From: an uncultured Opitutaceae bacterium
Lineage (GTDB): Bacteria; Verrucomicrobiota; Verrucomicrobiia; Opitutales; Opitutaceae
DNA length: 64,000 nucleotides
Direction of reading: 5' to 3'
Assembly: GCA_951813085.1 (NCBI GenBank)
Contig: OX638348.1
Location: forward strand, 1,497,627 to 1,561,626
Every line of letters starts with the position of its first letter. Positions within the stretch are counted from its first letter, which is position 1. The position numbers and the translations under genes are program-made. The notes under the pieces are model-generated. The model ran no database searches. It saw only the letters and a list, made by a program, of their open reading frames with translations, and was not told the DNA's origin. Positions 45,792 through 61,203 of the stretch are shown one piece after another.

Positions 45792-47273
45792 CTATCGATC
45801 CGCGGTCTCGATTGCCTGGTCCAATAGCTTACTCAGCCTAGCCTTGCGTTCCGCGTATTCGGGATTCAGAGCCTGGTTGGTAAATTCTCCTGGATCGCGA
45901 TTGTGATCGTAGAGTTCCTCCTCGCCGGTACTATAGCGGCTGTAGCGATAGGAACCTGATCGAATCGAACGGTGCACTGCTTTCGTATTTCCCATAACCG
46001 AAAACGCAGTTTCTCGCTCCCAGTCATCTCGATCTGGATTTTCGAGCAATGGTATCAACGAATGCCCGGGAAGAATGGAAGGCGCCTTATCGGCCAAACC
46101 GGCGAGTTCCGCGAAGGTAGGATACAAATCTACTAGCTCGGTTTCTGCCATGACCACTTTACCCGCGCTTTCTTCGAATCCTGGAGCGCGAATAATCAGC
46201 GGGACGCGGCACGCTGGCTCGAAGAGGCTGGGCTTTTGCCAGCTGCCATGCTCGCCGAGCAGCCAACCGTGATCCGAAATGAACACAACGACAGTGTTGT
46301 CCGCCATGCCCAATCGATCTAGGGCATCCAAGAGTCGACCCACCTGCTCATCCATATAGCTAACGCATGCATAATAAGCAGCCAATGCTTCTTTCGCCTG
46401 CGATTCAGTCATACGGTACGAGGTCGCGTTCGCTTTGTTCTGATTCGCCTTAGGCACGTCATCGAAATCGTTTTCCGGATACACGGGCAATTGCATGGAA
46501 TCAGGATTGTAGCGACTCATGAATTTTTCTGGAGCGACCAGTGGGACATGCGGTCGCACCAAGCCAACCCCAAGAAAAAGAGGCGCGCCCGGCTTCATTC
46601 TGTTGGTTTCATTGCGATGCCCTGATCGTGTCTCCAAAATGCTGATAGCTTGCGTTACGGCCATTTCATCCGCCTGAGTGGCCGACTGGTCGTTCGGCAC
46701 CGTCACCTTGACGAATGCGCTGCCCCAATGAGCTTGAGCTGGCGAGAGGTTTCGGAATTCGCCAACGCTCCCTGTTTCCGGAGCCCACAGATTGAATGCC
46801 AAGTCCCAGGAATCCGGATCATCGCCGCCTGGCTCACCCGCTTCAATCCCTCCAGGAACGCCCATGTGGTAGATTTTCGAAACCCGAGAGGAAACGTAGC
46901 TATTGCGCCTCAAGAAACCCCCAATGCTTGGATGTTCAGCGTGGTCCGGACTTACAGCTCGATAGCTGCCAAGCGTATACCTATTGCCATAGAACCCGGT
47001 CGTATCCGGATAAAGTCCACTCATGAAAGACGCCCGAGACGCACCACAAACAGGATACTGGCAATAAGCCCTATCGAATTGAACGCCCTCGCGGGCCAAT
47101 CGATCAATATTGGGAGTTTCAACGACGGCATTTCCATACGATCTCAAGGCCTCTGCAGACAAGTCGTCCGCTACGATGAAAACAAAATTGGGAAGCTCGT
47201 CGGCAATTATGCTGACAAGCGAACCTGTCCAAATCGCCGTAAGGGCTAGGGGTAGTCTTAAACTGTTCTTCAT
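45792..47273 (-). CDS. Secreted type I sulfatase (iduronate-2-sulfatase-like)
   Basis: 493 residues with a signal peptide (LPLALTAIWTGSLVSIIADE). Sulfatase core: NFVFIVADDLSAEALRSYGN (metal Asp pair), the formylglycine site CGASRASFMSG (C-x-A-x-R signature, Cys type, about residue 74), VFISDHGWLLGEHGSWQKPS (DH and active-site Lys), and CRVPLIIRAPG. The Cys needs conversion to formylglycine by a maturase encoded elsewhere. It hydrolyses sulfate esters of polysaccharides. It is downstream of an FAH-family hydrolase and an SDR on the same strand, which suggests use of sulfated deoxy-sugar polymers such as fucans. Intact. Confidence 0.94.
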   Translation of the reverse strand: MKNSLRLPLALTAIWTGSLVSIIADELPNFVFIVADDLSAEALRSYGNAVVETPNIDRLAREGVQFDRAYCQYPVCGASRASFMSGLYPDTTGFYGNRYTLGSYRAVSPDHAEHPSIGGFLRRNSYVSSRVSKIYHMGVPGGIEAGEPGGDDPDSWDLAFNLWAPETGSVGEFRNLSPAQAHWGSAFVKVTVPNDQSATQADEMAVTQAISILETRSGHRNETNRMKPGAPLFLGVGLVRPHVPLVAPEKFMSRYNPDSMQLPVYPENDFDDVPKANQNKANATSYRMTESQAKEALAAYYACVSYMDEQVGRLLDALDRLGMADNTVVVFISDHGWLLGEHGSWQKPSLFEPACRVPLIIRAPGFEESAGKVVMAETELVDLYPTFAELAGLADKAPSILPGHSLIPLLENPDRDDWERETAFSVMGNTKAVHRSIRSGSYRYSRYSTGEEELYDHNRDPGEFTNQALNPEYAERKARLSKLLDQAIETADR

Positions 47274-47402
47274 TGATAGATATAACTCAGATTAGATCCA
47301 TGTAGGACAATCTTCTATCGATAAGCGATACTCAAATTCGATGACATCATGGCCAACGCTACTTTCGAGAGTAGCCATGATCGTGAAAACACGAATAAAA
47401 TC

Positions 47403-48254
47403 CTATTCCGCGATTGCGACTTGGCGCTGCGTCCCCAAGCCATCGATACCAAGCTCAACGACATCGCCAGGTTTCAAGAATACCGGCGGATCGAATCCCA
47501 AACCGACACCTGCGGGCGTACCTGTCGAAATAATATCTCCTGGCAGCAACGTCATAAAACGGCTGATATAGGAAACCACCGTCGGAACGTTGAACAGGAA
47601 GTTCGCGGTATTTCCATCCTGCTTTTTTTCCCCATTGACCGTGAGCCAGAGTCGCAAGCTGTGCGGATCACCGACTTCATCCGAAGTTGCAATCCAAGGA
47701 CCGCAAGGAGCAAACGTGTCAGCGGACTTTCCTTTTACCCACTGCCCTTGCTTTTCAAGCTGCCACTCACGTTCCGAATAATCGTTATGCAGCACGTAGC
47801 CCGCAACGTAATCCAAGGCGGATTCCGCTGGCACGGATTTCGCCCGCTTGCCAATCACTACCGCTAGTTCGACTTCCCAATCCGTTTTTCTTGATCCTGC
47901 AGGAATAACAAGTTCGTCATTAGGCCCTTGATACGCGGTGGTCGCCTTAAAAAACAGGACCGGTTCGCTCGGAGGCTCCATGCCCGACTCTTTTGCATGG
48001 TCCGAGTAATTGAGCCCTACGCAGATTATTTTGCTGGGTCGACACGAGGGCGGTCCCAGTCTCACATTCGCATCCACTTCGACAGCGCCGGGAGCGCCTT
48101 CATCAATCCATGCCTTCAGTCGATCTAAGCCGTCTCCATCAAAGAACGCTTCATCGTAATCCCCAAACTCTGCAGGAATGCCAACGCGCCTTCCATCTTC
48201 CAATTGCGTCCCTGGCTTTTCCGCGCCAGGCTCTCCATATCGTATCAGTTTCAT
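47403..48254 (-). CDS. Fumarylacetoacetate-hydrolase-family protein, probable 2,4-diketo-3-deoxy-sugar-acid hydrolase
   Basis: 283 residues. The FAH fold and metal site are visible: KIICVGLNYSDHAKESGMEP, PVLFFKATTAYQGPNDELVI, DWEVELAVVIGKRAKSV (metal Glu residues), YVLHNDYSEREWQLEKQGQW (Asp), KSADTFAPCGPW, and SYISRFMTLLPGDIISTGTP. Enzymes with this sequence pattern split 2,4-diketo-3-deoxy-L-fuconate or -rhamnonate into pyruvate and lactate in the non-phosphorylating pathway. The upstream SDR (13-nt gap) fits the preceding oxidation step. Intact; the substrate assignment is inference from neighbours and family. Confidence 0.88.
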   Translation of the reverse strand: MKLIRYGEPGAEKPGTQLEDGRRVGIPAEFGDYDEAFFDGDGLDRLKAWIDEGAPGAVEVDANVRLGPPSCRPSKIICVGLNYSDHAKESGMEPPSEPVLFFKATTAYQGPNDELVIPAGSRKTDWEVELAVVIGKRAKSVPAESALDYVAGYVLHNDYSEREWQLEKQGQWVKGKSADTFAPCGPWIATSDEVGDPHSLRLWLTVNGEKKQDGNTANFLFNVPTVVSYISRFMTLLPGDIISTGTPAGVGLGFDPPVFLKPGDVVELGIDGLGTQRQVAIAE

Positions 48255-48267
48255 AAATGCTTAAATC

Positions 48268-49029
48268 CTATCTCAAATTGGTTACCCCTCCATCGATATC
48301 ATACGCCGATCCCGTAATGAATTGGGCTGCATCGCTGCAAAGAAACGCTGCTAGTTCAGCGATCTCTTCAGGATCCGCCATTCTACCGATGGGTTGATAA
48401 GCAGATAGTTCTTGGAAAACCTCTTCTTTGTTGTCCTTGAAGTGCTCATCCAAATACGCGTCCACAAACGGCGTATGCACTCTGGCAGGGCATAGGCAAT
48501 TGCAACGAATGCCATGCGAGACATAGTCCTTCGCTATCGAAAGGGTCATGGCGAATACCGCCCCTTTGGTCATGGAGTAGGCGAATCGATCCTTGATTCC
48601 AAGCCGACTTGCGATCGACGCCATGTTCAGAATGACCCCACCACCTTGGGATTTCATCTTAGGAAGAGCCTTTTGTACGCAGTGGAATACGCCTTTGACG
48701 TTCACATCGTAAACACGATCCATTTCCGCGCCGGTGGTGTCTTCAATGTTTCCCACCGATGCGATCCCAGCGTTATTGACTAAGACATCAATCCGATCAA
48801 TCGATGCAACAGCGGCCTCAACAGCCGACTCGGATGAAACATCCACGCTATAAGCGATCGCGTTCCCGCCCGCGTCATTGATGATTTTCGCCACTTCTTC
48901 GCCAGACGATTCATCCCGTTCAAATGCATGGATGACCCCTCCTTCGCTCCCAATTTTCATCGCGATCGCGCGGCCAATGCCTACGCCCGCACCCGTTACG
49001 ATTACCTGTTTACCTTCAAATCTAGCCAT
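48268..49029 (-). CDS. SDR, probable 2-keto-3-deoxy-L-fuconate (or rhamnonate) dehydrogenase
   Basis: About 253 residues; I favour the ATG at 49029 (MARFEGKQVIV) over the one five codons upstream. NAD-binding TGAGVGIGRAIAMKIG, NNAGIASVGNIED, catalytic Ser in LNMASIASRLG, YSMTKGAV (Tyr/Lys), and CPARVHTPFVDAYLDEHFKD with QPIGRMADPEEIAELAAFLC. The last two segments match the 2-keto-3-deoxy-L-fuconate/rhamnonate dehydrogenase group. It oxidises the keto-deoxy acid at C4, giving the substrate of the FAH-family hydrolase downstream. First gene of a three-gene operon ending with the sulfatase. No lesion. Confidence 0.88.
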   Translation of the reverse strand: MARFEGKQVIVTGAGVGIGRAIAMKIGSEGGVIHAFERDESSGEEVAKIINDAGGNAIAYSVDVSSESAVEAAVASIDRIDVLVNNAGIASVGNIEDTTGAEMDRVYDVNVKGVFHCVQKALPKMKSQGGGVILNMASIASRLGIKDRFAYSMTKGAVFAMTLSIAKDYVSHGIRCNCLCPARVHTPFVDAYLDEHFKDNKEEVFQELSAYQPIGRMADPEEIAELAAFLCSDAAQFITGSAYDIDGGVTNLR

Positions 49030-49154
49030 AGTGAAATGCGCCATGGTGGCATCTAGCTTTGAAACCCAGGCAATCGACTATGGCAAGCTCCTCATTTCCA
49101 GGTCGCCCTGGAACGGGAAAGCGCGCGCCAATTGGGCGATTCAATTTGCCCCAA

Positions 49155-49753
49155 TCAGTTGCTCGAAACCGCGTCGTTAAGTTCGCGAATCGGATAGGCG
49201 CGAGCAAAGGCATCCATTACCTCTTCCGAAACCCGCCCTGCGAGCCCAAGTGACGAGTCGTCCTCCAAAGGCAGGTTAATCGTCTGCTCCTTTCCTTGCC
49301 TCATAGACGAGCCTACTACGCCCCCGTAGCGAACGCGCTCTCCTTGCATCATCCCGAGCCTCGCCAATCCGCCGAGTCCAGCCAGCAAACCGCCTCCACC
49401 GTCCGCGGAGGCCCGCGTTATGGTGAAGCGAATCGTTTCGCCGGCAGCGTTCGTGTAGACCCGCTCCGTTTAATGGATACGCCTACTGCTTTATTCTTCA
49501 CGATGTCGCCTCCTTTGAACTCGCCGACTTCATCAATGAGAAACTTGTCGATGCCGCTTTGCTTGGCTTTATCGATCAGCTCCAGGCCCCATCGAATCTC
49601 TTCTGCGCCATCGTCGATTTGATTTTCCTCCAGAAGCGCAATGCCCTCCTTCAAGGCCGCGATCGCTTTCTTGATTTCCTTGTCTTGAGCCTCGTCGGCG
49701 AAGGCGCCGCAAAGCGTTGCGAGCGCGAGGGATAGGATATAGATATTTCTCAT
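49155..49753 (-). pseudogene. Secreted protein with glycine-rich segment, one frameshift
   Basis: From ATG 49753 a signal peptide (MRNIYILSLALATLCGAFAD) precedes a helical region (KEIKKAIAALKEGIALLEEN, EIRWGLELIDKAKQSGIDKF). After KNKAVGVSIK the frame breaks near 49470. The continuation lies in the next frame: VYTNAAGETIRFTITRASAD, GGGGLLAGLGGLARLGMMQG, and it ends RELNDAVSSN at 49155. One base lost or two gained explains it. Whole length would be about 198 residues. No family recognised. Divergently placed from deoC, so the upstream 150 bases hold both promoters. Confidence 0.6.
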
Positions 49754-49904
49754 GGCAACAGGGTTAAAAGATATCGCCCAGTCTGCAAGCGCCCATGATT
49801 CTGTCAACGAAAGAGCCCTGAACGAGCAGATTTGTAACGGAGATCCAATCAAGCCGAAGATTCCCATTGAAGCTTACTGAAAATCGAACTAGCCAAAGCG
49901 CCAG

Positions 49905-50126
49905 ATGAAAGCCTTGAACCGTTACCTCGACCATGCAGTCCTCAAGCCAGAGCTCACTCAAGCGGAAGCGGAGGAGGCAATCGTCCTCGGATTGAAATTC
50001 GACACGCGAACCGTGTGCACGAAGTTGTTCCCCATTCGGACATGTTTTGATCCTTACGATCTGGAAGACGAAAAGAACTCATTTCTCCCCGTTACCGGCG
50101 GACTTTATAGCCGATCCGGCGTCTGA
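49905..50126 (+). pseudogene. deoC: deoC 5' fragment (deoxyribose-phosphate aldolase), interrupted by the integrative element
   Basis: The first 38 codons (MKALNRYLDHAVLKPELTQA ... FDTRTVC) are the DeoC N-terminus with LDHAVLKPELT (family LDHTxLKP). After the 14-bp repeat the frame runs into element sequence (TKLFPIRTCFDPYDL...) and stops at 50126. Joined to the 3' part across the repeat it reads LGLKFDTRTVCIRPSDLNLA, a normal DeoC sequence. DeoC cleaves deoxyribose-5-phosphate to acetaldehyde and glyceraldehyde-3-phosphate in deoxynucleoside catabolism. The fragment alone lacks all catalytic residues. Confidence 0.93.
50006..50019 (+). repeat. attL-side core repeat of the element (14 bp)
   Basis: GCGAACCGTGTGCA, identical to bases 56722-56735. 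It lies in the deoC coding sequence at codons for TRTVC. Confidence 0.88.
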
Positions 50127-50276
50127 TGGATAGACTTTATCGAAAGAAGTTTGTTCCCATGAAAAGGCATTCTGGTAATAAATAGCCACCATTTTAACGC
50201 TGTTTGAAACAGACCCTTGTCAGTATTCCAGCAAACAAAAAAATGCTGACGATTTTTATCAACCCGCGTTTACAGA

Positions 50277-50301
50277 TTAGAACAAAGGAGAGCCGTTCTA
50301 A
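50277..50301 (-). repeat. Inverted repeat at the end of the RM operon
   Basis: TTAGAAC ... GTTCTAA, 7-bp arms and an 11-base loop, covering the last codons and stop of the RM gene. No T-run follows; possibly a weak terminator. The adjoining roughly 150 bases up to 50127 hold a second imperfect repeat (GTCAGTATT/AATGCTGAC) and no gene. Confidence 0.35.
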
Positions 50302-53018
50302 CCAATAGCAGTTAGTCGGATTTCCATTAAACTTAGAACACATTCATAAAGCTGCTGCCGTGAAAGATTGAGTCCAAACGCGTCAATAATAGTATCGTCG
50401 AACGCCTGACGATCCCGTTGATCCAATTCATCAGCAACTTCCATAATATCTCGTTGCAAGAGCGGTGCAAACGCAGATTTAATGCTATCCTTTTGCGCTT
50501 GATCGAGTTGGGTGAAATCGAGAATGTGCATATACTCTTCAATGCGGTCTTTGTTCAGATCAAGAGCGCCTAAACCCCGCCCAAAGCCCATGCCTTCGAT
50601 CAGAAACATTGCAATAGTGCTGTTGAGAAGAGCGTGGCATAATTCTACGTCAATTTGCGTTATAGGCTCGAGGCGCACCATGCGCTGATCGACAAATGCA
50701 GGAGGATCGAGCCTACCAACAAACAAACGATCACCATAGTTTATAAACATCACCAAGTCGGTCAGTGTGTCTGCTTTCATTTCATACCAAAACTGAGACG
50801 AAGTGCCGAGTTTCGAGATATTTTCAGGCGTCTTGAAATGACTGATCCAATTAAGTGCTCCAGTATGCCCGAGAGCATTCAATTCCGCTTCTGTTTTTGA
50901 ACAAGAAAAAGCTTCTTTTGCAGCTGCTCCGCTAAGGCGATTAAAGTTGGTAGGACTCTTGGCGAGTGGCTTTATGTAATCTGCCTCAATCCCGTGGCCT
51001 ACTTTTGGATAAAATAAAGCATTCATCCCGCGACGCTCTCCACGTCGAATCTTAAAGTGATCTTTCAACGTAGTAAGAGGAAGTTCAAGCACCCAATCGC
51101 AATTTACGAATTGGGCGTTTCCTCCAAGGCCAAATTTTCTATACCGTTCAAGGCTTAATGGACTGACGGTCCGAATGGTCATCGTTTCATTCTGCGTCTG
51201 CCCCAGTTCAATTTGTGCGGCAGCTATCTGAACAGCCTCACCCTCAGACATTTCTTCGAGAGGTCGTGTGAGAACAACAAATTGGATGTTCCCACTTTCG
51301 CGCTCAGGGCTAGATTTCTTTTCCAAAATTAGAATGTTGGTGACAACTTCGCTATTTTGAAACCAGCGACCAGCTCCCGAGGTAATTACACTTTTAAAAT
51401 CATAGTATCGGCCAAGGAGCTTATAAAAAGCATCGCCCCAATCCGTACCGAGCCAAGCATTGGTAATTATAATTCCTAGTCGCCCTTGCTCTGCTAACAA
51501 CGGATGCATTTAAAATGGTAAATATGCCGCAACGTCTGCTCGCCTAGGGAACCGATCTCCTTCTTTTCCCATAGAAGCCACAACTTGTTTGAGAGCATTA
51601 CCATATTGCTTTCTTCCTGCCTGCGCAACGAAAGGAAGATTGCTGGTAATGGCTTGAAATTCACCCAATTCTTCAGCAAAAATGCTGCCATTTGTTGGAT
51701 TTCGAAATTCAATCAAATTATCAGGCTCCAGACTAAAAGCGTCCCTTTGAAATATTCGTAACGGGACGTGCATCAAATCAGGTTTAGCAAGAGCGAAAGT
51801 TGCAATCTGGACAGCTTGCGGGTCTTGATCACCAGCAAACACTGCTCCGGCTGCTAGATCCGGGGCCACGCCGGCATCTAGTTTCTGTTCTATTACGGCC
51901 CGAGCAATTGTTCCGCTTCCACAGCAGGGATCAAGAACTCTATCATCTACGGTGTCACGAACACACAGATGAACCAATAAACGAGCTAGTTCAATTGGAG
52001 TAGAGTACTGGCCACGCAATTTTCGAATTGCAACTTCGACAGTCGCTTCCAACACGCCTGATAATTGACTTTGATCTACTGATCCGACCCGAAGGTCAGC
52101 CAAAAGATGGTTGAACTGTTTGAGCTGATCCCAAGCTGGTCTAGTGATCGTCGAAAGTCCAAGACTGTCCGAGAATATGGTCCAGAAATTGCACTGCTTG
52201 GAAAGCTCTTCAAACAACCGGAGCGCATCTTCCGGCGTACTTTCATCGCCGATAACAGCGACCCCTTGAGCGCGGCTATCTTTCTCACGGAGAATATGTC
52301 CGAAAAGAATTTTACCGATCCAATTTGAAATAACCGCTTGCGCGAGAACTTGCTCCATTTCTCCACCAGCGTATTCCGCTTTATATCGGTTCCACCAGAG
52401 CAACATTTCCGCGCGAAACGTCGAGTTCCGCCTTGCCGCATCTTTTAAAGCATCTGCGACCTGGCCGGAATTCTCCATGATTAAAGCAGTCACCCCTCCG
52501 CTCCGATAAGCATCAATGAACTGACGACCTTGCAATGATCCACGATCAAATAGGTCGTTCAGATAGCCCATAATTTGGGCAGCCTGATCTTCCCATCGTT
52601 GCCGATTAGCAGCCACGGTTCCGCGAGTTTTGACGTCTGCAAGATCTGACCATTGATGATCGCAACTATATTCATCTGATTCAAGGTCACGCGTGTACAG
52701 ATGGGCGTGCGACACATTCCAAAGCAAGAAGCTGTCTAATCCGAGAGCGCGTGCCTTTGCTTCTGCGTTGTTGCGAAATTCAATATCGTCAATCTTAGTG
52801 TCGGGCATCTTTAATTCCCAACCTTGAAGTATGCGTGCTGTCGATCTGTCGCCAAATAAAAGCACGTCCGGAAAAAGGCTTCCGCCGTCAACGCTAATGG
52901 TCTGTTCACCCCCAGCGTCTTTGATCGATCTGTTATTTTGATTTGCTAGCTGTTTTAAAAAGCCAATGAGATCGATTGCCCATGAGCGTTCATTATAGGA
53001 CGCCGCCCTGCTGTTCAT
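50298..53018 (-). pseudogene. Type IIG-like restriction nuclease-methyltransferase, one in-frame TAA
   Basis: 906 codons in one frame, broken by TAA at 51510 in VAAYLPF*MHPLLAEQGRLGI; Tyr (TAT/TAC to TAA) is the likely original. N-terminal PD-(D/E)xK-type nuclease signature: FPDVLLFGDRSTARILQGWE then LKMPDT. Central methyltransferase: motif I DPCCGSGTIARAVIE, second-strand Asp in FAGDQDPQAV, motif IV SNLPF (family NPPF/Y, so the Pro is changed). The C-terminal part (GRLGIIITNAWLGTDWGDAF) holds later motifs and the specificity region. An ATG directly follows the stop, so two polypeptides could still be made. The start overlaps the preceding methyltransferase stop (ATGA). Confidence 0.82.
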
Positions 53019-53917
53019 ACAGCTTCCCTGACGGATTCTTGGAGAACGCGATCAACATCTACCATCCCTCTACGATTAGGTTGACCAGCTCGCGCCGCTG
53101 GTTGAAGCGATGAATAGAGCGGTGGCGGTGGCTGTTTCGTTATCAACGCCTCTTCAACCTCAGTTAGGCGTTGTTTCGCGACAGCAATGTAATCAATCTT
53201 TTCCTCTTTGAAGAGATGGACTTCTTCATTTTTTTCTATGCCTACAAAGCGACGGCCTTCAAGCGCCGTTGCAACAAGAAAACTTCCGCTACCGAATGCG
53301 TTGTCAAGAACGACATCTCCTGGCCCCGTAAATAATCGAATTAGATACCTGCCTAATGCTACGGGTTTTTGTGTTGGATGCCACACACGACATCCCGCCT
53401 CACTTTCAGCCGTCTTGCAATAAAGAGTATCGGTTGGGTAACGGTCGCCATCGCTTTTCACTTGAACAGGTTTAAAATCTCCGTAGCTTCCAGTAAATTG
53501 AGCTTTGCGAGTGCCTTTGTTATAAGGATCGCCCTTAGACATGACTGGTCTGTATTTGGGCTGGCTACCATAAAAAACACAAATATCTTCGTGCTGCCTT
53601 AGTGGTTGTTTACGAGCATTGAGGAAATTTGTAGCCTTGCTCTTCACCCATACAAATTTGTATTTGAACCATTGCTCATTGCTGAGAATGAGCCTTGCCG
53701 TAAACACTCCTTGAGACGAAAGGGCGATAACCCCTTTTGGTTTTATTATCCTTTTGTATTCCGACCACAATTCATCCAATGCAATCACGCTATCCCATTT
53801 ATTCTGCGTCGTACCATAAGGTAAATCACACAGAATCATATCTACAGATTGGCTATCCAACTGCTTCATGATTTCCAAGCAATCACCTTGGTGAATATCC
53901 CCTCCAAGATATTTCAT
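53015..53917 (-). CDS. Beta-class site-specific DNA methyltransferase (N4/N6)
   Basis: 300 residues. Motif order IV then I marks the beta class. Motif IV is MILCDLPYGTTQNKWDSVI (DLPYGT, a known variant of DPPY). Motif VIII region is FVWVKSKATNFLNARKQPLR. Motif X/I are HPTQKPVALGRYLIRLFTGP and VVLDNAFGSGSFLVATALEG, then RFVGIEKN. It methylates adenine N6 or cytosine N4 in a short site. Overlaps by 4 nt (ATGA) with both the regulator gene before it and the nuclease-methyltransferase gene after it, so translation is coupled. Intact, so host DNA would still be modified even if cleavage is lost. Confidence 0.93.
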   Translation of the reverse strand: MKYLGGDIHQGDCLEIMKQLDSQSVDMILCDLPYGTTQNKWDSVIALDELWSEYKRIIKPKGVIALSSQGVFTARLILSNEQWFKYKFVWVKSKATNFLNARKQPLRQHEDICVFYGSQPKYRPVMSKGDPYNKGTRKAQFTGSYGDFKPVQVKSDGDRYPTDTLYCKTAESEAGCRVWHPTQKPVALGRYLIRLFTGPGDVVLDNAFGSGSFLVATALEGRRFVGIEKNEEVHLFKEEKIDYIAVAKQRLTEVEEALITKQPPPPLYSSLQPAARAGQPNRRGMVDVDRVLQESVREAV

Positions 53918-54120
53918 TGGACTGAGCGCTCGACAGAGGTGGGGGCCGACGAAAATTGTGACGGCGAAAGCGATCCGCCTTCTTTTGTATGGCTAATAAG
54001 CTCGCAAATTGCTTTTCTTCCAAGCCAAGCGAGAGAGCGATCAGACCCAGTCGCAATTTTCTGGAGCACTTGGTATTCTTCATCTTCCAAGGTGACTGTA
54101 ATTCGATGCTTGACTGTCAT
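53914..54120 (-). CDS. Ribbon-helix-helix regulator at the head of the RM operon
   Basis: 68 residues from ATG 54120. MTVKHRITVTLEDEEYQVLQ then KIATGSDRSLAWLGRKAICE forms a classic strand plus two-helix RHH/CopG pattern, with a low-complexity Ser/Pro tail. The frame is open 28 codons further upstream, but that part lacks the fold. It overlaps the methyltransferase start (ATGA). By position it probably controls the RM operon, playing the part that C proteins play in other systems; this is inference. Confidence 0.72.
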   Translation of the reverse strand: MTVKHRITVTLEDEEYQVLQKIATGSDRSLAWLGRKAICELISHTKEGGSLSPSQFSSAPTSVERSVQ

Positions 54121-54232
54121 TATTCGGCTCCGTGTAAATTTTGATGCACCTTGCATCACTATGCGGAAAGGTGCAACGGAAAATTGAAAACAAAACGTGA
54201 ACATTTTTGGAAATGGGCTTGTCCATATGAAG

Positions 54233-55424
54233 TTACTTGCACCCGGCTAACGCCTCTTCCAACAAATCCCCGATCCTTTGCGATGCCTCAACTACTTGGC
54301 CATCGTCCAAATGTGCATATCGTGAAGTCGTCGTAATATGCGTATGACCTAGGAGCTTTCCAATTATTGGCAGCGTTTCTGATCGCGCTGCCGCATGACT
54401 AGCAAAACTGTGCCGCAGATCGTGAAGTCTAACACCAGGAAGGTCCGCCTCTTCCTTAATCTTCACCCAGAACGAACCCACGCTGCGGATGGGTTTGCGG
54501 GTTTTGGGGTTCAAGAACACTTCCGGATGCCCTTTTCGTCGGGGAAGGCAGGATAGCAACATATGCGCTTGTTCCCCGAGCCAAGCCGTGCGCGGTCCCG
54601 TCTTGCTGTCGGTTAGCACCAATCGCCTCCCCTTCACTTCTGGCCACCGCAGGCCAGTGATCTCAGATTTGCGGCAGCCGGTCAGGATCAACAGGTAGAT
54701 GATCACCGAATGGAGCGGATAATTCTTCCGCACTGCATCAAAGCGCATTGCCGAGCCGCTCCAGTTCCTGATCAGACAAGAACCGCTCAAACTTGCGGCG
54801 CTTGTTAATGCGGATAAAGGCGCAAGGGTTACTACCTTCATCCCGCAACCCCCATTCCTTTGCCTTGTTGAACATGGCGCGCAATATATCAAAGCATCGG
54901 TTACCCGCGGCGGGACCGCCACGATTGGTGACATAGCTGAACCATGTCACAACATCTTCTTCGACAATCTCATCCAGAAATTTTCCGGCAAAGGCGTTAT
55001 CGAGATAGGCTGTTCGATAGTTGGTTTGTGTCATCTTTGTAGAGGGCTTCCATTTAGGTGACATGGTTTTCCAGTAGGATTTAAGAAAATCTGCAAACAG
55101 GGGCACCTTGCGCTTCTTCATCCGCTCATCGGCAGGATTTGCACCGCTTGCTCTGGTCAACACTCTGCGCGCCACCGACATCGCCTGACGGCGATTGACA
55201 ATCTTCGCATTGCCGATGGTTACGGTGCGCGTTGTCCCTTGCATCAACGCTTGGACGATATAGGCTTTCCGCCCGCTTTCATAGATGCGAACGCCAAAGC
55301 CCGGCAGTTTGCGTGACCAGCGGGTTTTTCGAAGATTGCCCTTCTTCCCACAATTGCCGATCAGACTGATATAGCTATGGCCTAGTTCTTCGGCGACGAT
55401 GTTTCTGAGTGTCAGCGCGTTCAT
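54233..55424 (-). pseudogene. Tyrosine integrase 2, single frameshift
   Basis: ATG 55424 (MNALTLRNIVAEELGHSYIS) overlaps the stop of integrase 1 (ATGA). N-terminal arm/DUF4102-like part (KLPGFGVRIYESGRKAYIVQ), core-binding helices (SYWKTMSPKWKPSTKMTQTN), then a stop at 54738 after LERLGNAL. One extra base there; the next frame continues RFDAVRKNYPLHSVIIYLLI, LTGCRKSEITGLRW (first Arg), VRLHDLRHSFASHAA (HxxR), GHTHITTTSRYAHL (catalytic Tyr). All catalytic residues survive, but in a separate frame from the N-terminus. Catalysed integration or excision with integrase 1. Confidence 0.87.
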
Positions 55425-56647
55425 GATGCAATTCCCAGACACTTTACAATTGACCCGGACACACGAGCAGCTGCATCGGCAACAACTTCGTCGAACAAGT
55501 GCGCATAGCGTGCTGTGGTTTCAGCCAGTGCATGACCAAGTAGTTTGCCAATCACCATCAGCGAGATATTGTCAGCGATGGCAATCGAGGCAAAGCTGTG
55601 CCGCACATCGGGAAAGGCTGCATGATTTCTTATTTTTGGCCAGAAATTTCCGAGGTTGATTGGCGCATCAGCATAATGTGCCGGAAAGACCAGTCCATTG
55701 GATTTTCGATCTGGGATGTCATCCAACAACGCCAAAGCCTGACGATTGAGATAGATGATTTTTGCACCCGTCTTGCTATCGGGCAGCATTAGCCTTGGTG
55801 GTTGCACCCACTCCCATCGCAAGTTCTCGATTTCGCCGCGCCTCGCGCCAGTATAGATAAGCAGCCTGATTGCCGTAACCGCTTCCGGCCGCGTGTTTTC
55901 AAAATCCGATAGAGCTACTGCTAGTCTTCCAAATTCACGCTTCGTCAAAAGGCGCTCCATGCGCGTCTTCTTGTAGCGCGGCGTTCCCTTGCAGGGGTTT
56001 GAACCTTTTGGCCGCAATCCAAGTTGCTCTGCATAGGTCATCATAACAGCCAGCACAGGCAGTGTCCGGTTGAACACTCCTGGCTTCGTGGCAAAACTGT
56101 CGCGCCAGAACAGGATATCGCTTTTGCGCAGCTCATCGACTCTGCAATCACCAAAAGCATCGCAGATATCGCGAAAGATGGCGGTCTTGTTTCTGCGCTG
56201 CGTGCTGGGTTTCCAGTGCCGAGCATAATCTGCCCAAAACCGATGCGCATAATCGCGCATTAAAGGCATCTGCTTCTTTTTGCTCTCAGCCGCTGATCCA
56301 CGCACCGGCAAACCACCAAGCGCGACCTTCAACAATTCTGCTTTGGCAAGCCAGCGGGCCTCACTGGCACTGACTTCACCCACCTGGCCCAGCGATATTC
56401 TTCGCTGCTTCCTGCGCTGGCGCAACATCACAAACCATGTCTTGCACCCCGATGGAAATACCCGCAGTCCAAAGCCCGGCAAGTCCTTGTCCCAATATTC
56501 GGTTTCCTGGGCTTTTGGCTTTCGCCTCGCTACATGGCCATTGAGGCAGATGGAGGCTTTTGGCTGCGAACCAGATCGCTTTTTTGGAACGATTCGAAGG
56601 TGGTTTTGGGCATTATCTTGTGGTAGCAAATAGCCATTGGAGAACAT
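55421..56647 (-). CDS. Tyrosine integrase 1, lacks the HxxR box
   Basis: 408 residues, open throughout. Arm-binding region (YWDKDLPGFGLRVFPSGCKT, RRKQRRISLGQVGEVSASEA), core-binding helices (YAHRFWADYARHWKPSTQRR), catalytic Arg in IYTGARRGEIENLRW, the beta-hairpin Lys in DSKTGAKIIYL, and Tyr in LGHALAETTARYAHLF. Where the family and its neighbour have VRLHDLRHSFAS it reads PDVRHSFASIA: five residues, including the catalytic His, are missing. The gap is explained by a 15-bp deletion between TGCGGC repeats near 55600. The start lies 75 bases from the right attachment repeat. Probably inactive as a recombinase. Confidence 0.88.
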   Translation of the reverse strand: MFSNGYLLPQDNAQNHLRIVPKKRSGSQPKASICLNGHVARRKPKAQETEYWDKDLPGFGLRVFPSGCKTWFVMLRQRRKQRRISLGQVGEVSASEARWLAKAELLKVALGGLPVRGSAAESKKKQMPLMRDYAHRFWADYARHWKPSTQRRNKTAIFRDICDAFGDCRVDELRKSDILFWRDSFATKPGVFNRTLPVLAVMMTYAEQLGLRPKGSNPCKGTPRYKKTRMERLLTKREFGRLAVALSDFENTRPEAVTAIRLLIYTGARRGEIENLRWEWVQPPRLMLPDSKTGAKIIYLNRQALALLDDIPDRKSNGLVFPAHYADAPINLGNFWPKIRNHAAFPDVRHSFASIAIADNISLMVIGKLLGHALAETTARYAHLFDEVVADAAARVSGSIVKCLGIAS

Positions 56648-56713
56648 CGGAAATTACTCCTTGTTGGGGAGCAATTTCGATGCAAAACCAATGGTTTATA
56701 AAATCTTACTGCA

Positions 56714-57304
56714 ATGCAATTGCGAACCGTGTGCATTCGCCCCAGCGATCTCAACCTCGCTCAAGGACTTCTGGAAGGTTCAAGTACAGAGGTTTGCGGC
56801 ACCCTAGGCTTTCCTCACGGTTGCGTCGATTCGCGAACGAAGCAGAAGGAAGCTGCGATCTACGCGGATAACGGTGTCCCCGAAATTGATATGGTTTCCA
56901 ACTTCGGCCGGGCTCGATCAGGTGATTGGAATACGTTCGAAGCCGATATCGACGCTATCTCCCGCATTCTCAAACCGTCTGGTTCGATCCTAAAAGTAAT
57001 CCTGGAAACAGCCCTCCTCTCTTTTGAGGAAATCAAGCAAGCCACCCGCATTTGCGCGTTCCTTGGTGCGGACTACGTTAAAACGTCTACCGGATTCAAT
57101 GGAGCCGGCGCCACAATCGAAGCCGTCCGCTCCATGCTCGAAGCCGCAAAGGGGCAAATTAAAGTCAAAGCTTCCGGCGGAATTCGCTCCCGCCAGGAGG
57201 CGCTCGCCTTCGTCGAGATGGGATGCCATAGACTCGGCGTGGGCTACGGAACGACGCCCGTCATCTGCTCGGGTGGATCGGAAACTTCCGACGCGCACTA
57301 CTAG
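56714..57304 (+). pseudogene. deoC: deoC 3' fragment (catalytic part)
   Basis: Genuine deoC sequence resumes at the repeat at 56722 (RTVCIRPSDLNLAQGLLEG). It contains CGTLGFPHG, EIDMVSNFG (Asp of the proton relay), the Schiff-base Lys in GADYVKTSTGF, VKASGGIR (second Lys) and a normal C-terminus. The element supplies an ATG (MQ before LRTVC) that could start this part, but then the first strand of the TIM barrel with 37 residues is absent, so a stable active enzyme is unlikely. All lesions of the gene are explained by the single insertion. It lies upstream of a LacI-type regulator. Confidence 0.93.
56722..56735 (+). repeat. attR-side core repeat of the element (14 bp)
   Basis: GCGAACCGTGTGCA, identical to 50006-50019 and in the same codon phase of deoC. 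Confidence 0.88.
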
Positions 57305-57424: not shown

Positions 57425-58477
57425 GTGAAGAAACGCGTCACCCTTCAAGACATAGCGGACCGACTCGGCTATTCGAAGAATACCATATCGCTAGCCCTGC
57501 GGGACAGCGCCCAAATATCGACCGAAACCAAGGCCCGAATTCAAGCCGTCGCCAGCGAGATGGGCTACCAGCCAAATGCCGTCGTCTCGCGTCTCATGGC
57601 TGAGCTCAGAGCGAGTCAATCGAACAAGTTCCAGGCGAAGCTCGCCTTGATAAATGCCAACGAGGATTCGCAAGCCTTCCGCAACCATCCAACCATACCC
57701 GCATATGTGGACGGGTGCCATCGACGCGCTGCTCAGCTAGGATATTCATTCGATTCATTTTGGATGCACGAACCGAATATGAACGCAGGCAGATTTATAC
57801 AAATTCTGAATACAAGAAATATAAAAGGCATCGTCATTGTTGGATTGATGGGAAAAAACGAACTACCTCAGAAACTTATGCCAATTTGGGAACGGTTCCC
57901 CGTGGCGGTCACGGGTGTACGAACGCGAAATCCAACGCTATCATTCGCGTGCGTAGACCATCACATGCTAACGCTTCGCGCTGTCGAGCGCCTCGTGGAC
58001 TTCGGCTACTCCAGGCCCGCCCTCGTAGTAGATGAGTCCATCGACCTCCTGGTTGACCGACGATTCACCGCCGGTTTCTCAGCAGGACTATCCCTAGTCA
58101 GGGTAGAAAATCGGCTAGCTCCCTTTATTGAATACAAATCTGCCAAAAAAGATTCGTCAATATTCAAGTCCTGGATACTGAAAAACCGACCCGATTCAAT
58201 TCTAACCTTATACAATTCCGTTTCACGATGGATATCTGAGATGGGATTGAACATACCTGACGATATCGGCGTTGCCCAACTTGAGCAGCGGGCAGAAAGC
58301 CCCGGCATTGCTGGAATGGACCAGCGAAACGACATCGCAGGCGAAGCGGCGGTGGACATGGTCATAAGCCAGATCCACAACAATGAGCGTGGCATTCCGG
58401 AATTTCCACGATCGACTTTGATAGGGGCAACATGGAGACCTGGACCTACTGTAAGGGCGCAGGCGCTACCCACTTAA
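57425..58477 (+). CDS. LacI-family transcriptional regulator
   Basis: 350 residues from GTG 57425. LacI helix-turn-helix and hinge: VTLQDIADRLGYSKNTISLA then LRDSAQISTETKARIQAVAS and MGYQPNAVVSRLMAELR. The periplasmic-binding-protein-like sensor domain follows (IKGIVIVGLMGKNELPQKLM, VERLVDFGYSRPALVVDESI, DDIGVAQLEQ). The effector is probably a sugar. It faces the SDR at 58557 in the same direction and is divergent from nothing close, so it may control that gene or the 59-61 kb sugar genes. Intact. Confidence 0.92.
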   Translation: MKKRVTLQDIADRLGYSKNTISLALRDSAQISTETKARIQAVASEMGYQPNAVVSRLMAELRASQSNKFQAKLALINANEDSQAFRNHPTIPAYVDGCHRRAAQLGYSFDSFWMHEPNMNAGRFIQILNTRNIKGIVIVGLMGKNELPQKLMPIWERFPVAVTGVRTRNPTLSFACVDHHMLTLRAVERLVDFGYSRPALVVDESIDLLVDRRFTAGFSAGLSLVRVENRLAPFIEYKSAKKDSSIFKSWILKNRPDSILTLYNSVSRWISEMGLNIPDDIGVAQLEQRAESPGIAGMDQRNDIAGEAAVDMVISQIHNNERGIPEFPRSTLIGATWRPGPTVRAQALPT

Positions 58478-58556
58478 ATTCCACGATTTCCATACAACTG
58501 TACCAGTGCTTGCCAAGCAGCATCGAACCTGATTTCACCCATTGAAACTGCTAACT

Positions 58557-59345
58557 ATGTCCCACAATAAAGTCCCATTTGACCTCACAGGTCGTACCGC
58601 TCTCATAACCGGCTCAACTCAGGGCATCGGATTCGCGATCGGAAAGGCTTTGGCAAGCGCCGGCGCCAGCATCGTTCTCAATGGAACGAGTGAAGAGTCC
58701 GCAGCGCAGCCATCTGTCGACGCGCTTAAGGAATTTGGGGGAGATGCGTGGTTCTGCCAATCCGATCTGTCCCAACCCGGCTCTGCCAAGCAGCTCTACG
58801 ACGAAGCGGTCGCAAAAGCAGGACCCATCGACATCCTTATATCGAATGCCTCCGTACAGTCCTTCACTCCTTTCCTGGACGTCGAAGAGGACGCCATCGA
58901 CTATCAGTTCGCGACCAATTTCAAGTCTTCCTTCATTCTTATCCAACTTGCCTGCAAGGACATGCTAGAGCGCGGATGGGGGCGAATCATCACCATTGGG
59001 AGCGTTCAAGAAGAGAACTACAATTCCAATTTTTCGGTTTATGGAGCCTTAAAAGCCGCGCAGACGCATCTGGTGAAAGGACTTGCCAAGACCCATAGCC
59101 GAAACGGCGTGACCTTCAATAATATCGCCCCGGGCAGCATCGACACGAAACGAAACAAGGCCTTTTTCGCCGACCCGGCCAATCTTTCCAGCATGGTCGC
59201 AAAGATTCCGGTGGGCCGCATCGGAGCGCCCGAAGACTGCGACGGAGCTGCGTTGCTGCTATGCTCTGATGCGGGGGCCTACATAAACGGCCTCAACCTA
59301 TTCGTAGATGGCGGTCTTCGGCTTAAGGCGGATCCGCCTAGTTGA
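58557..59345 (+). CDS. Short-chain dehydrogenase/reductase
   Basis: About 262 residues from ATG 58557 (MSHNKVPFDLTGRTALITGS). Cofactor site TGSTQGIGFAIGKALA, SNASVQSFTPF (the NNAG position reads SNAS), catalytic Ser in TIGSVQEENYNS, Tyr/Lys in YGALKAAQ, and PGSIDTKRNKAF. The pattern is like gluconate 5-dehydrogenase/3-oxoacyl reductase-type SDRs acting on sugar acids. It follows the LacI regulator by 80 nt; its 3' end overlaps the convergent dehydrogenase gene by 8 nt. No lesion. Confidence 0.9.
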   Translation: MSHNKVPFDLTGRTALITGSTQGIGFAIGKALASAGASIVLNGTSEESAAQPSVDALKEFGGDAWFCQSDLSQPGSAKQLYDEAVAKAGPIDILISNASVQSFTPFLDVEEDAIDYQFATNFKSSFILIQLACKDMLERGWGRIITIGSVQEENYNSNFSVYGALKAAQTHLVKGLAKTHSRNGVTFNNIAPGSIDTKRNKAFFADPANLSSMVAKIPVGRIGAPEDCDGAALLLCSDAGAYINGLNLFVDGGLRLKADPPS

Positions 59346-60297
59346 CGCGATTAATCGTCTTTCCTTCGATAAAGGATTTCAGGTTCTCAACCGACATTTT
59401 CATCAGCCGCGCCCGCGCCGCCTTAGTTGCCCAAGCGATGTGAGGAGTGACTGCGCAATTCTTCGCGGAAAGCAGCGGGTTGTCGCTACTTGGAGGCTCC
59501 GAGGAAAGGACGTCCAAGCCCGCGCCCGCGATCCTGCCTGAATTGAGCGCTGCCGCCAAGGCCTTCTCATCGACCAAAGGTCCCCGACCGGTATTCACAA
59601 TGAAGGCGTTGGGCTTCATCGAATCGATTCGATCCGCGTCGACGAGATTTTGAGTATCCGGCGTCAGTGGGCAATGCAGCGAAATGAAATCGCTCCTCGA
59701 AAACAACTCATCCAGGCCGACCCAGGCAACTCCCTCCGGCTCAGGTCGATCAGGATTGCGGGTGTAGGCTATGACATTCAATCCGAAACCACGCCCAATC
59801 CGAGCCACGGCGCTGCCAATCTCTCCGAGACCTACAATGCCCAAAGTAAGACCACTAATCTCCAGCAAAGGATGCTTCCAATAGCAAAAGTCCGGGCATT
59901 TCGCCCAACCGCCCGATTGGGCATCTTGAGCGTGCTCCGCCAGACGATGCGTGAAGTTGAGGATGTGGGCGAATACCATTTGCGCCACCGATTCCGGTCC
60001 ATAGCCCACCACGTTGCAAACCGGCACCCCCTGCCTCGCAGCGGCCTCGGTATCGACTATATTGACGCCTGTCGCCAATACCCCGATATATTTTAGCGAG
60101 GATGCTCCCTGTATCGTTTTTTCCGATACGATCGCCTTATTCGTGATCAAGGCATCGCAATCTTTCGAGCGAGCCTCTACCTCTTCGGGGTTGGATCGTT
60201 CATAGACAACCACCTCTCCTAGCTCCTCGAAGCCCGACCAGCTCAAGTCGCCTGGATTCAGTGTGTGACCATCAAGCACTACTATTTTCATCGCCAT
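59338..60297 (-). CDS. D-isomer 2-hydroxyacid dehydrogenase (glycerate dehydrogenase/hydroxypyruvate reductase-like)
   Basis: 319 residues. Rossmann motif LGIVGLGEIGSAVARIGRGF (about residue 152); catalytic Arg in VNTGRGPLVDEKAL, Glu in LDVLSSEPPSSDNP, His in VTPHIAWATKAAR. The N-terminal segment LKYIGVLATGVNIVDTEAA is close to the HprA group. Interconverts hydroxypyruvate or similar 2-keto acids and D-2-hydroxy acids with NAD(P)H. Four nt downstream of the TIM-barrel gene on the same strand, so cotranscribed. Intact. Confidence 0.93.
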   Translation of the reverse strand: MAMKIVVLDGHTLNPGDLSWSGFEELGEVVVYERSNPEEVEARSKDCDALITNKAIVSEKTIQGASSLKYIGVLATGVNIVDTEAAARQGVPVCNVVGYGPESVAQMVFAHILNFTHRLAEHAQDAQSGGWAKCPDFCYWKHPLLEISGLTLGIVGLGEIGSAVARIGRGFGLNVIAYTRNPDRPEPEGVAWVGLDELFSRSDFISLHCPLTPDTQNLVDADRIDSMKPNAFIVNTGRGPLVDEKALAAALNSGRIAGAGLDVLSSEPPSSDNPLLSAKNCAVTPHIAWATKAARARLMKMSVENLKSFIEGKTINRVN

Positions 60298-60300
60298 AAT

Positions 60301-61203
60301 CTATCGTTCCCATTTTTCAAAACGATTTCGAGCCGCCTTGAGATCGTTGACCCAATCGCCTTTCAGCTCGGTCCATGCTTGCTCGATCACCAAATACCCG
60401 CGATAGCCAGCGTTGATCGCATGCGTCAGGAATCCATCAAAATCCGTTACGCCCTGCCCAAACGGAACCGTATCGTGCCCCTTCCCTCGTTCACGGCAAT
60501 CCTTGAGATCAATGTGCAAGATTCGTTCTCTAAACGTGTCAACCACTTCGCCGAGATCGACGGAAACTCCTTCGAAGTGGCCGGTATCCAAGCACATGCC
60601 AACTTTAGGCGAATCGATGGCGGCGAAAATCTCTTCGTAGTCCCCTATCCGCTCAAGGGTGTTGTTCGCGTGATTCTCCAATGCTACCTGAATCCCTTTC
60701 GCTTCCGCTACAGGAGCAAGTTCGCGCAGAACCTCAATGATCGATTTCAGCCCCCCCGCGGTGCCTCTTCGGGATCCCGTACACTTTAAAATGCGACACC
60801 CCAGCTGCTCACATCGGTCGAGCAACACAAGCTTGTGCGACAAGTCCTTAATCACTCCCGTCCGCCCTTCCCCGCCAAACCCGGATCCTTGAATGCTAAT
60901 TGGGGTCAATCCGGTTTGCTGACAGCGTTCTTTTAGGCTATCGATGTAGTCGGGAACGATAAGGTCTGGATACCAAAGATTGAACTCCACATTACGATAG
61001 CCCAACTGAGGAATGAACTCGAAAGAAGGCTTGTGCCGATGGGCTCCAAATCCATCCACGCATATTGTCGCAATCGCCAGCGCGATGCCATTATCTTCAG
61101 CCTGAGCCCCCAGAGACCGATTGCTCCAAATAGGATTTGTTGCAACTGCAGCGGCGGCGGTAGCGACCTGTTTAACAAATATTCGGCGTGGAACCTCGGG
61201 CAT
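60301..61203 (-). CDS. Tat-exported sugar phosphate isomerase/epimerase-like TIM-barrel protein
   Basis: 300 residues. The N-terminus (PRRIFVKQVATAAAAVATNP) is a Tat signal with the RRxFxK motif. The AP-endonuclease-2/xylose-isomerase-like TIM barrel follows: RNVEFNLWYPDLIV, GIQVALENHANNTLERIGDY (metal Glu), KVGMCLDTGHFEGVSVDLGE (metal Asp/His), ERILHIDLKDCRERGKGHDT, and YRGYLVIEQAW. Family members isomerise or epimerise sugars. It heads the operon with the 2-hydroxyacid dehydrogenase and is intact. Substrate unknown. Confidence 0.9.
   Translation of the reverse strand: MPEVPRRIFVKQVATAAAAVATNPIWSNRSLGAQAEDNGIALAIATICVDGFGAHRHKPSFEFIPQLGYRNVEFNLWYPDLIVPDYIDSLKERCQQTGLTPISIQGSGFGGEGRTGVIKDLSHKLVLLDRCEQLGCRILKCTGSRRGTAGGLKSIIEVLRELAPVAEAKGIQVALENHANNTLERIGDYEEIFAAIDSPKVGMCLDTGHFEGVSVDLGEVVDTFRERILHIDLKDCRERGKGHDTVPFGQGVTDFDGFLTHAINAGYRGYLVIEQAWTELKGDWVNDLKAARNRFEKWER

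Follow-up and report, generated by a model that had tools for sequence, protein, structure and literature searches.

What interrupts deoC in an uncultured Opitutaceae bacterium, and can the interruption be undone? In the window, the whole 64,000-nucleotide stretch of contig OX638348.1 that was analysed, the gene is divided by an insert of 6,716 bp, core to core. The insert carries recombinase genes, and its removal in silico restores an open frame. This could be the signature of a regulated switch or of an island that came to rest in a metabolic gene.

The insertion site in deoC

The 14-bp sequence GCGAACCGTGTGCA is present at 50006..50019 (left att core) and at 56722..56735 (right att core) on the plus strand, as exact copies in the same deoC codon phase. 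The sequence-only reading had reported this repeat, and it was confirmed by sequence match and by a count over the whole genome of 4,852,771 bp, in which these two forward copies are the only exact ones (none in reverse). Repeats of 14 bp are not rare in the window: 18 distinct 14-mers are repeated, GCGAACCGTGTGCA among them, so the core repeat counts only through its position. With a tolerance of up to two mismatches, at least two core matches were present in 8 of 100 shuffles. A simple product gives an expectation of about 0.0005 exact 14-bp matches between two pieces of these sizes. The core match joins both deoC pieces in phase.

The 5′ piece (49905..50018, plus strand) comprises codons 1–38 and is 73–76% identical to the DeoC N-termini of three congeners. 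Its frame extends 35 codons into the element and ends at a stop at 50124–50126. The 3′ piece (56714..57304, plus strand) is an open frame of 196 amino acids. Its first 8 bases are element DNA, and the residues MQL replace DeoC residues 1–34. By itself, this piece scores 164.9 bits against the NCBIfam deoC equivalog, above the cut-off of 117.3. The proposed restoration of an aldolase frame by excision held in silico: leaving out one core and the insert yields 227 amino acids without internal stop. The joined protein keeps the lysines in VKTSTGF and VKASGGIR, which we take to be the catalytic lysines of DeoC, and its residues 4–212 align with the best solved deoxyribose-phosphate aldolase (DERA; E 2.5e-42).

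The empty site was searched for in relatives, as the first reading had suggested, and uninterrupted genes were found. DeoC matches at E 1e-20 are present in 68 of 273 genomes of the host's order, its own genome counted. The site test covered the DeoC loci of 29 other genomes of the order, all of which were tested. The insertion site is aligned and uninterrupted in 23 loci; in the other six, the alignment begins downstream of the site and is uninformative. All three congeners tested share the gene order KDR-hydrolase-like, SDR, deoC, LacI, SDR, dehydrogenase, dapF and pyrD, with a partial LacI in L038. A fourth congener (G323) has no DeoC match. The congener cores differ from the window core at 3, 5 and 6 of 14 positions, which is no argument against the site because the DeoC proteins are only 55–61% identical: 60.8% for the own protein and L037, 58.5% for L037 and L038, and 55.4% for the own protein and L038.

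The claim of an element integrated at a protein-coding core within deoC thus gained support from the integrase at one end, element ends that are homologous to those of relatives, and the uninterrupted syntenic deoC in three congeners. ARAGORN detected no tRNA in the window, and no Rfam family reached its gathering score there. Site-specific insertion with direct att cores and an uninterrupted site in relatives is the pattern of an integrative element. The observations support that such an element split deoC and that the core is deoC coding sequence.

The surroundings of deoC (45792–49044 and 57425–61203) encode a sulfatase, a 2-hydroxyacid dehydrogenase, a xylose-isomerase-like TIM barrel protein, an SDR (Pfam) and a LacI regulator. 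A hydrolase of this neighbourhood resembles 2,4-didehydro-3-deoxy-L-rhamnonate hydrolase with 328 bits, below the cut-off of 500. The neighbourhood looks like one for sugar catabolism, and deoC may have a role other than nucleoside catabolism. Between the SDR gene and deoC, a host open reading frame (ORF; 49155–49867, minus strand) consists of two overlapping frames and looks like one frameshifted gene. It has no match in the three congener stretches and may be a pseudogene or contain an assembly indel.

Contents, ends and relatives of the element

All element genes are on the minus strand. From the right, the order is int1, int2, a 96-amino-acid ORF, an N6/N4 DNA methyltransferase and a type IIG restriction enzyme in two pieces. 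int1 (55421..56647) encodes a tyrosine recombinase of 408 amino acids with Arm-DNA-bind_3, SAM-like and Phage_integrase domains; an integrase gene at one end is a feature of integrative elements. int2 (54233..55424) encodes a second tyrosine recombinase. Both assignments are based on Pfam and on comparison with relatives. The int1 stop and the int2 start share 4 bases, an overlap also present in 11 of 17 relatives. The 96-amino-acid ORF (53914..54204) lies ahead of the methyltransferase gene and has a marginal Arc-like repressor match in PHROGs (E 0.00084), with no match in Pfam, PADLOC or NCBIfam. A short similarity to it (33–37 amino acids, 35–36%) is located upstream of the methyltransferase in the related cargo loci L063 and L064. 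The methyltransferase (53015..53917; PF01555, 4.5e-26) shares 69% identity with L064 and 70% with L063. The type IIG restriction enzyme/methyltransferase is represented by an N-terminal part (51510..53018, stop included; profile positions 7–509 of 935, 2.9e-124; 56% identity to Rhizorhabdus pDC05) and a C-terminal part (50298..51509; positions 513–929 of 935, 1.3e-105). Type IIG enzymes unite nuclease, methyltransferase and specificity parts in one chain; here both halves match successive parts of the PADLOC profile PDLC03606, with an in-frame stop between them.

A PHROGs scan of the seven element ORFs yielded integrase, DNA-methyltransferase and the one marginal repressor match, and no structural, packaging or lysis families. 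General scans of the element ORFs with Pfam, PADLOC, NCBIfam and PHROGs detected no phage structural or conjugation genes. The proximal end between int1 and the core (56648..56721, minus strand) aligns with the ends of relatives. So does the distal end (50020..50120, minus strand; CGAAGTTGTTCCCC adjoining the core), whose homologues are the distal ends of three elements from sphingomonads. The boundaries therefore rest on more than deoC. At the element ends, a repeat finder reported neither inverted nor direct repeats. Judged by these sequence features, the insert is most likely a non-phage integrative element of a tandem-integrase family with restriction-modification cargo.

The int1 relatives in the genome_contigs collection comprise 10 loci, by title nine sphingomonads (two of them MAGs) and one Caulobacteraceae MAG. 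All 10 have an int2 homologue downstream. Plasmids contributed 23 records at E 1e-50, of which 7 were fetched; the nearest are from sphingomonads, and weaker relatives (33–39%) belong to Shewanella, Vibrio, Leisingera and others. In the Croceicoccus order, 15 of the 296 genomes have an int1 relative at E 1e-80, G373 itself among them. The host's order has no match at E 1e-60 among 371 other genomes.

Seventeen tandem-integrase islands of Sphingomonadales (L045–L061) were grouped for comparison. int1 is full length in 16 and int2 exceeds 350 amino acids in 15 of them. A core within two mismatches of NGCACACSSTWCGC lies upstream of int1 in 12. The distal end GAACAACTTCG with a core is clear in three, L046, L048 and L049, which measure 6,088, 5,344 and 7,313 bp core to core; the proximal core of L049 is degenerate and was placed at the distance at which it normally lies from int1. 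In these three, the two cores of an element are not the same (1, 2 and 4 mismatches in 14 positions), whereas the window's pair is identical. This non-identity counts against the explanation preferred below and makes the crossover region of the family tentative. The pattern GCGTASGGTGTGC occurs 26 times in the genomes of 10 relatives versus once for a reversed control, and hence marks many sites. The distal-end pattern has no exact match in viral contigs.

deoC was considered as the usual target of the family and rejected: a DeoC tblastn at E 0.01 gave no match in 61 related loci (1.5–31 kb, some with little flank), whereas the same search found 29 of 29 known deoC loci. Joining the flanks of the three two-ended relatives yields frames that stay open across the junction for up to 281, 156 and 220 amino acids. 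One joined-flank frame from each had no Pfam match. The sphingomonad core GCACACCGTACGC, placed in the deoC frame, spells R-T-V-C and differs from the window core only at two wobble positions; the RTVC reading in both lineages is suggestive only. A wider interpretation would be a distinct family that depends on two dissimilar tyrosine recombinases acting as an obligate pair and has a core derived from a conserved coding stretch. Here, the deoC insertion would represent the ancestral chromosomal target and the plasmid and island sites derived copies. We regard this as improbable. No name or description of the element family was found in the full-text literature searched, and none of the papers listed for deoC as an attachment site mentions deoC.

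Several relatives show additional arrangements. The host side of one element, upstream of int1, carries the distal-end sequence of another element (L106), which suggests tandem accretion at the same core. Genome G665 has two int1 relatives about 26 kb apart. Genes for a cytosine methyltransferase, Vsr and a type II endonuclease are near the tandem integrases in L057, and the antiviral reverse transcriptases Drt3a/b in L059, where a row of conjugation genes precedes the element. In L055, genes for an ATPase, a helicase and a methyltransferase are located further along. These defence-type genes presumably belong to the elements, in loci where distal ends were not found.

The distribution raises the question of origin. 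Over 296 residues, the RpoA of the host is 97% identical to that of a congener, but only 46–48% to those of the sphingomonad genomes of L046 and L054, which share 84% with each other. int1 has 60–64% identity to 7 of the 10 genome_contigs relatives and up to 66% in the Croceicoccus order. The methyltransferase reaches 69% and the type IIG parts 56% and 50%. These identities are above those of RpoA, which argues for horizontal transfer. The element was probably acquired across a large phylogenetic distance, with relatives otherwise in alphaproteobacteria. We infer the direction of transfer, and the donor lineage, from where the family is common. The nearest plasmid relative of the cargo is the methyltransferase/type IIG module of Rhizorhabdus wittichii pDC05. 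Equally close cargo is encoded by a genome of a different family within the host's own order (G295, L063), with an intact methyltransferase and a 911-amino-acid type IIG enzyme, 50–70% identical to the window's parts. The route of the cargo is thus less certain than that of the integrases.

Lesions and the fate of deoC

In the assembly, three element genes are damaged. int1 lacks 15 bp in frame at about 55604 in comparison to its relatives. The loss removes five amino acids of box II, including the His of the HxxR motif, which is presumably the H of the RHRY set. The HDLRH motif is kept in 16 of 17 int1 relatives, and the 17th is truncated. A catalytic RHRY set of tyrosine recombinases is described in the available portions of the literature. 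In int2, a single-base frameshift near 54740, within a short T run, falls at the end of the N-terminal half, before the catalytic domain. An in-frame TAA (51510..51512, minus strand) splits the type IIG gene where two homologues, of 909 amino acids in L064 and 911 in L063, read through as single frames. Decay is not confined to the window: int2 is without the motif in L049 and short in L056, and both genes of L053 are broken. In the host genome, a search at E 0.001 found no int1 relatives beyond int1 and int2 themselves. The recombinases would, by their sequences, have lost activity. Two points count against decay: the lesions of int2 and of the type IIG gene each concern a single base and may stem from the assembly, and the loss of five residues in int1 is no proof of inactivity.

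The locus is explained best, and with good confidence, by a once-mobile, now immobilised non-phage island of the Sphingomonadales tandem-integrase family that left deoC split. The core of the element would have recombined site-specifically with the deoC codons for RTVC, producing the 14-bp direct repeat. Integration would have brought the DNA methyltransferase and the type IIG restriction enzyme as cargo. Later decay may have deprived int1 of five box II residues, shifted the frame of int2 and introduced the in-frame stop into the type IIG gene. The damaged element would most likely be unable to excise by itself, and deoC remains split. This order of events is a reconstruction.

The sequence-only reading had likened the locus to regulated, reversible gene-disrupting prophages. 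This likeness did not hold: both integrases are damaged, PHROGs shows no phage genes beyond integrase and methyltransferase types and a marginal repressor, and the family shows no deoC association. A switch of the active-lysogeny kind, in which conditional excision of the element restores deoC, would account for the exact in-silico restoration of the frame with one core and the insert left out and for the stop-free deoC pieces, and elements that excise from mutS are reported in the accessible text of PMC5296598. The damage to both integrases led to its rejection, int1 being without the box II His and int2 without an in-frame catalytic domain. The genome offers no further int1 relative at E 0.001, and none of the 61 related loci matches DeoC (control 29 of 29). 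A reversible switch is accordingly very unlikely. Less remote, but still unlikely, is an intact and mobile element whose apparent lesions arose in sequencing or assembly. In two of the three, only a single base is affected (for int2 in a short T run), the neighbouring host ORF also looks frameshifted, and the int2 frame is longer than 350 amino acids in 15 of 17 relatives. The in-frame 15-bp loss of int1 is no typical homopolymer error, and for seven neighbouring host genes, a single frame aligns over nearly the full length with one or more congeners. That the insert is a prophage or its remnant is scarcely credible, in spite of tyrosine integrases, att cores and PHROGs matches to integrase, methyltransferase and a marginal Arc-like repressor. 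None of the seven ORFs has a structural, packaging or lysis match in PHROGs, of the 50,697 phage records only two match int1 at E 1e-15, weakly (31% and 27%), IMG/VR contains no confirmed int1 locus, and the three two-ended relatives span only 5.3–7.3 kb.

Both deoC pieces are stop-free and the divergence is hardly above that between congeners, which makes the insertion young in comparison with the genus. A faster decay of the gene since it was split was considered and rejected, as it is not seen in the identities to and between congeners. The disruption may be recent, or the fragment may still be under some selection; this counts against the preferred explanation. A DeoC still made from the element-supplied ATG at 56714, with a functional protein of 196 amino acids, would be analogous to mutS elements that supply a new start, a precedent found in the accessible text of PMC5296598. 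The open frame MQLRTVC... has both lysines, exceeds the NCBIfam deoC cut-off and shows no marked decay. We consider such a product improbable: MQL takes the place of residues 1–34, and with them of the LDHxxLKP stretch, which can be aligned with solved DERAs. Visual inspection ahead of the ATG reveals no obvious ribosome-binding site, and promoter-like sites are no more frequent here than in shuffles (9 versus 8.2, sd 3.0). DeoC function is presumably lost. A protein search at E 0.001 found no further deoC copy in the genome. The broad Pfam DeoC/LacD family has matches at two further loci, one of which could provide a stand-in aldolase.

With deoC split by a probably immobilised island, the gene appears broken and not switchable. 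That a frame can be restored in silico by cutting out an insert does not demonstrate reversibility of the disruption. For mobile DNA, coming to rest inside a gene in this manner is a common way to inactivate it. In the proposed history, a small island with restriction-modification cargo crosses a very large phylogenetic distance and then freezes in a metabolic gene. The conserved ends, the core and the integrase pair define an element family that can be searched for.

Comparison with known integrative systems

Integration into protein-coding genes has been described for dusA (PMC4482086) and mutS (PMC5296598), as far as the accessible text of both papers goes. According to the same portion of PMC5296598, the mutS elements provide a functional protein with its start and promoter, and were shown to excise in several strains. 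In contrast, the window's element costs deoC 34 residues and its integrases are damaged. The dusA islands resemble it in having tyrosine recombinases and in lying within the 5′ end of a protein-coding gene; their integrases have another target, dusA being the single site at which that family was identified (PMC4482086, in part).

Multi-integrase operons at one end and variable cargo are shared with GInts (PMC5385486) and strand-biased SEs (PMC10214605), as the available excerpts describe them. Imperfect direct repeats of 10–17 nt, given for GInts in the excerpt of PMC5385486, are a further likeness. The same source defines GInts by ginABCD, three integrases and a small fourth protein, whereas the window has two recombinases. 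SEs require intA-tfp-intB-srap in the available part of PMC10214605; the window has no gene between int1 and int2, and its direct 14-bp cores are identical. RIT elements, in the descriptions at hand, need RitA, RitB and RitC, compared with two recombinases here. Prophages of active lysogeny are recognised by phage genes beyond the integrase, and the window's element offers only a methyltransferase and a marginal repressor match. The closest likeness is to the sphingomonad islands L045–L061, which have the int1-int2 pair and the core in common with it, some records with downstream restriction or antiviral genes (L057, L059). By its int1-int2 pair, homologous ends and core, the element in deoC belongs with these islands.
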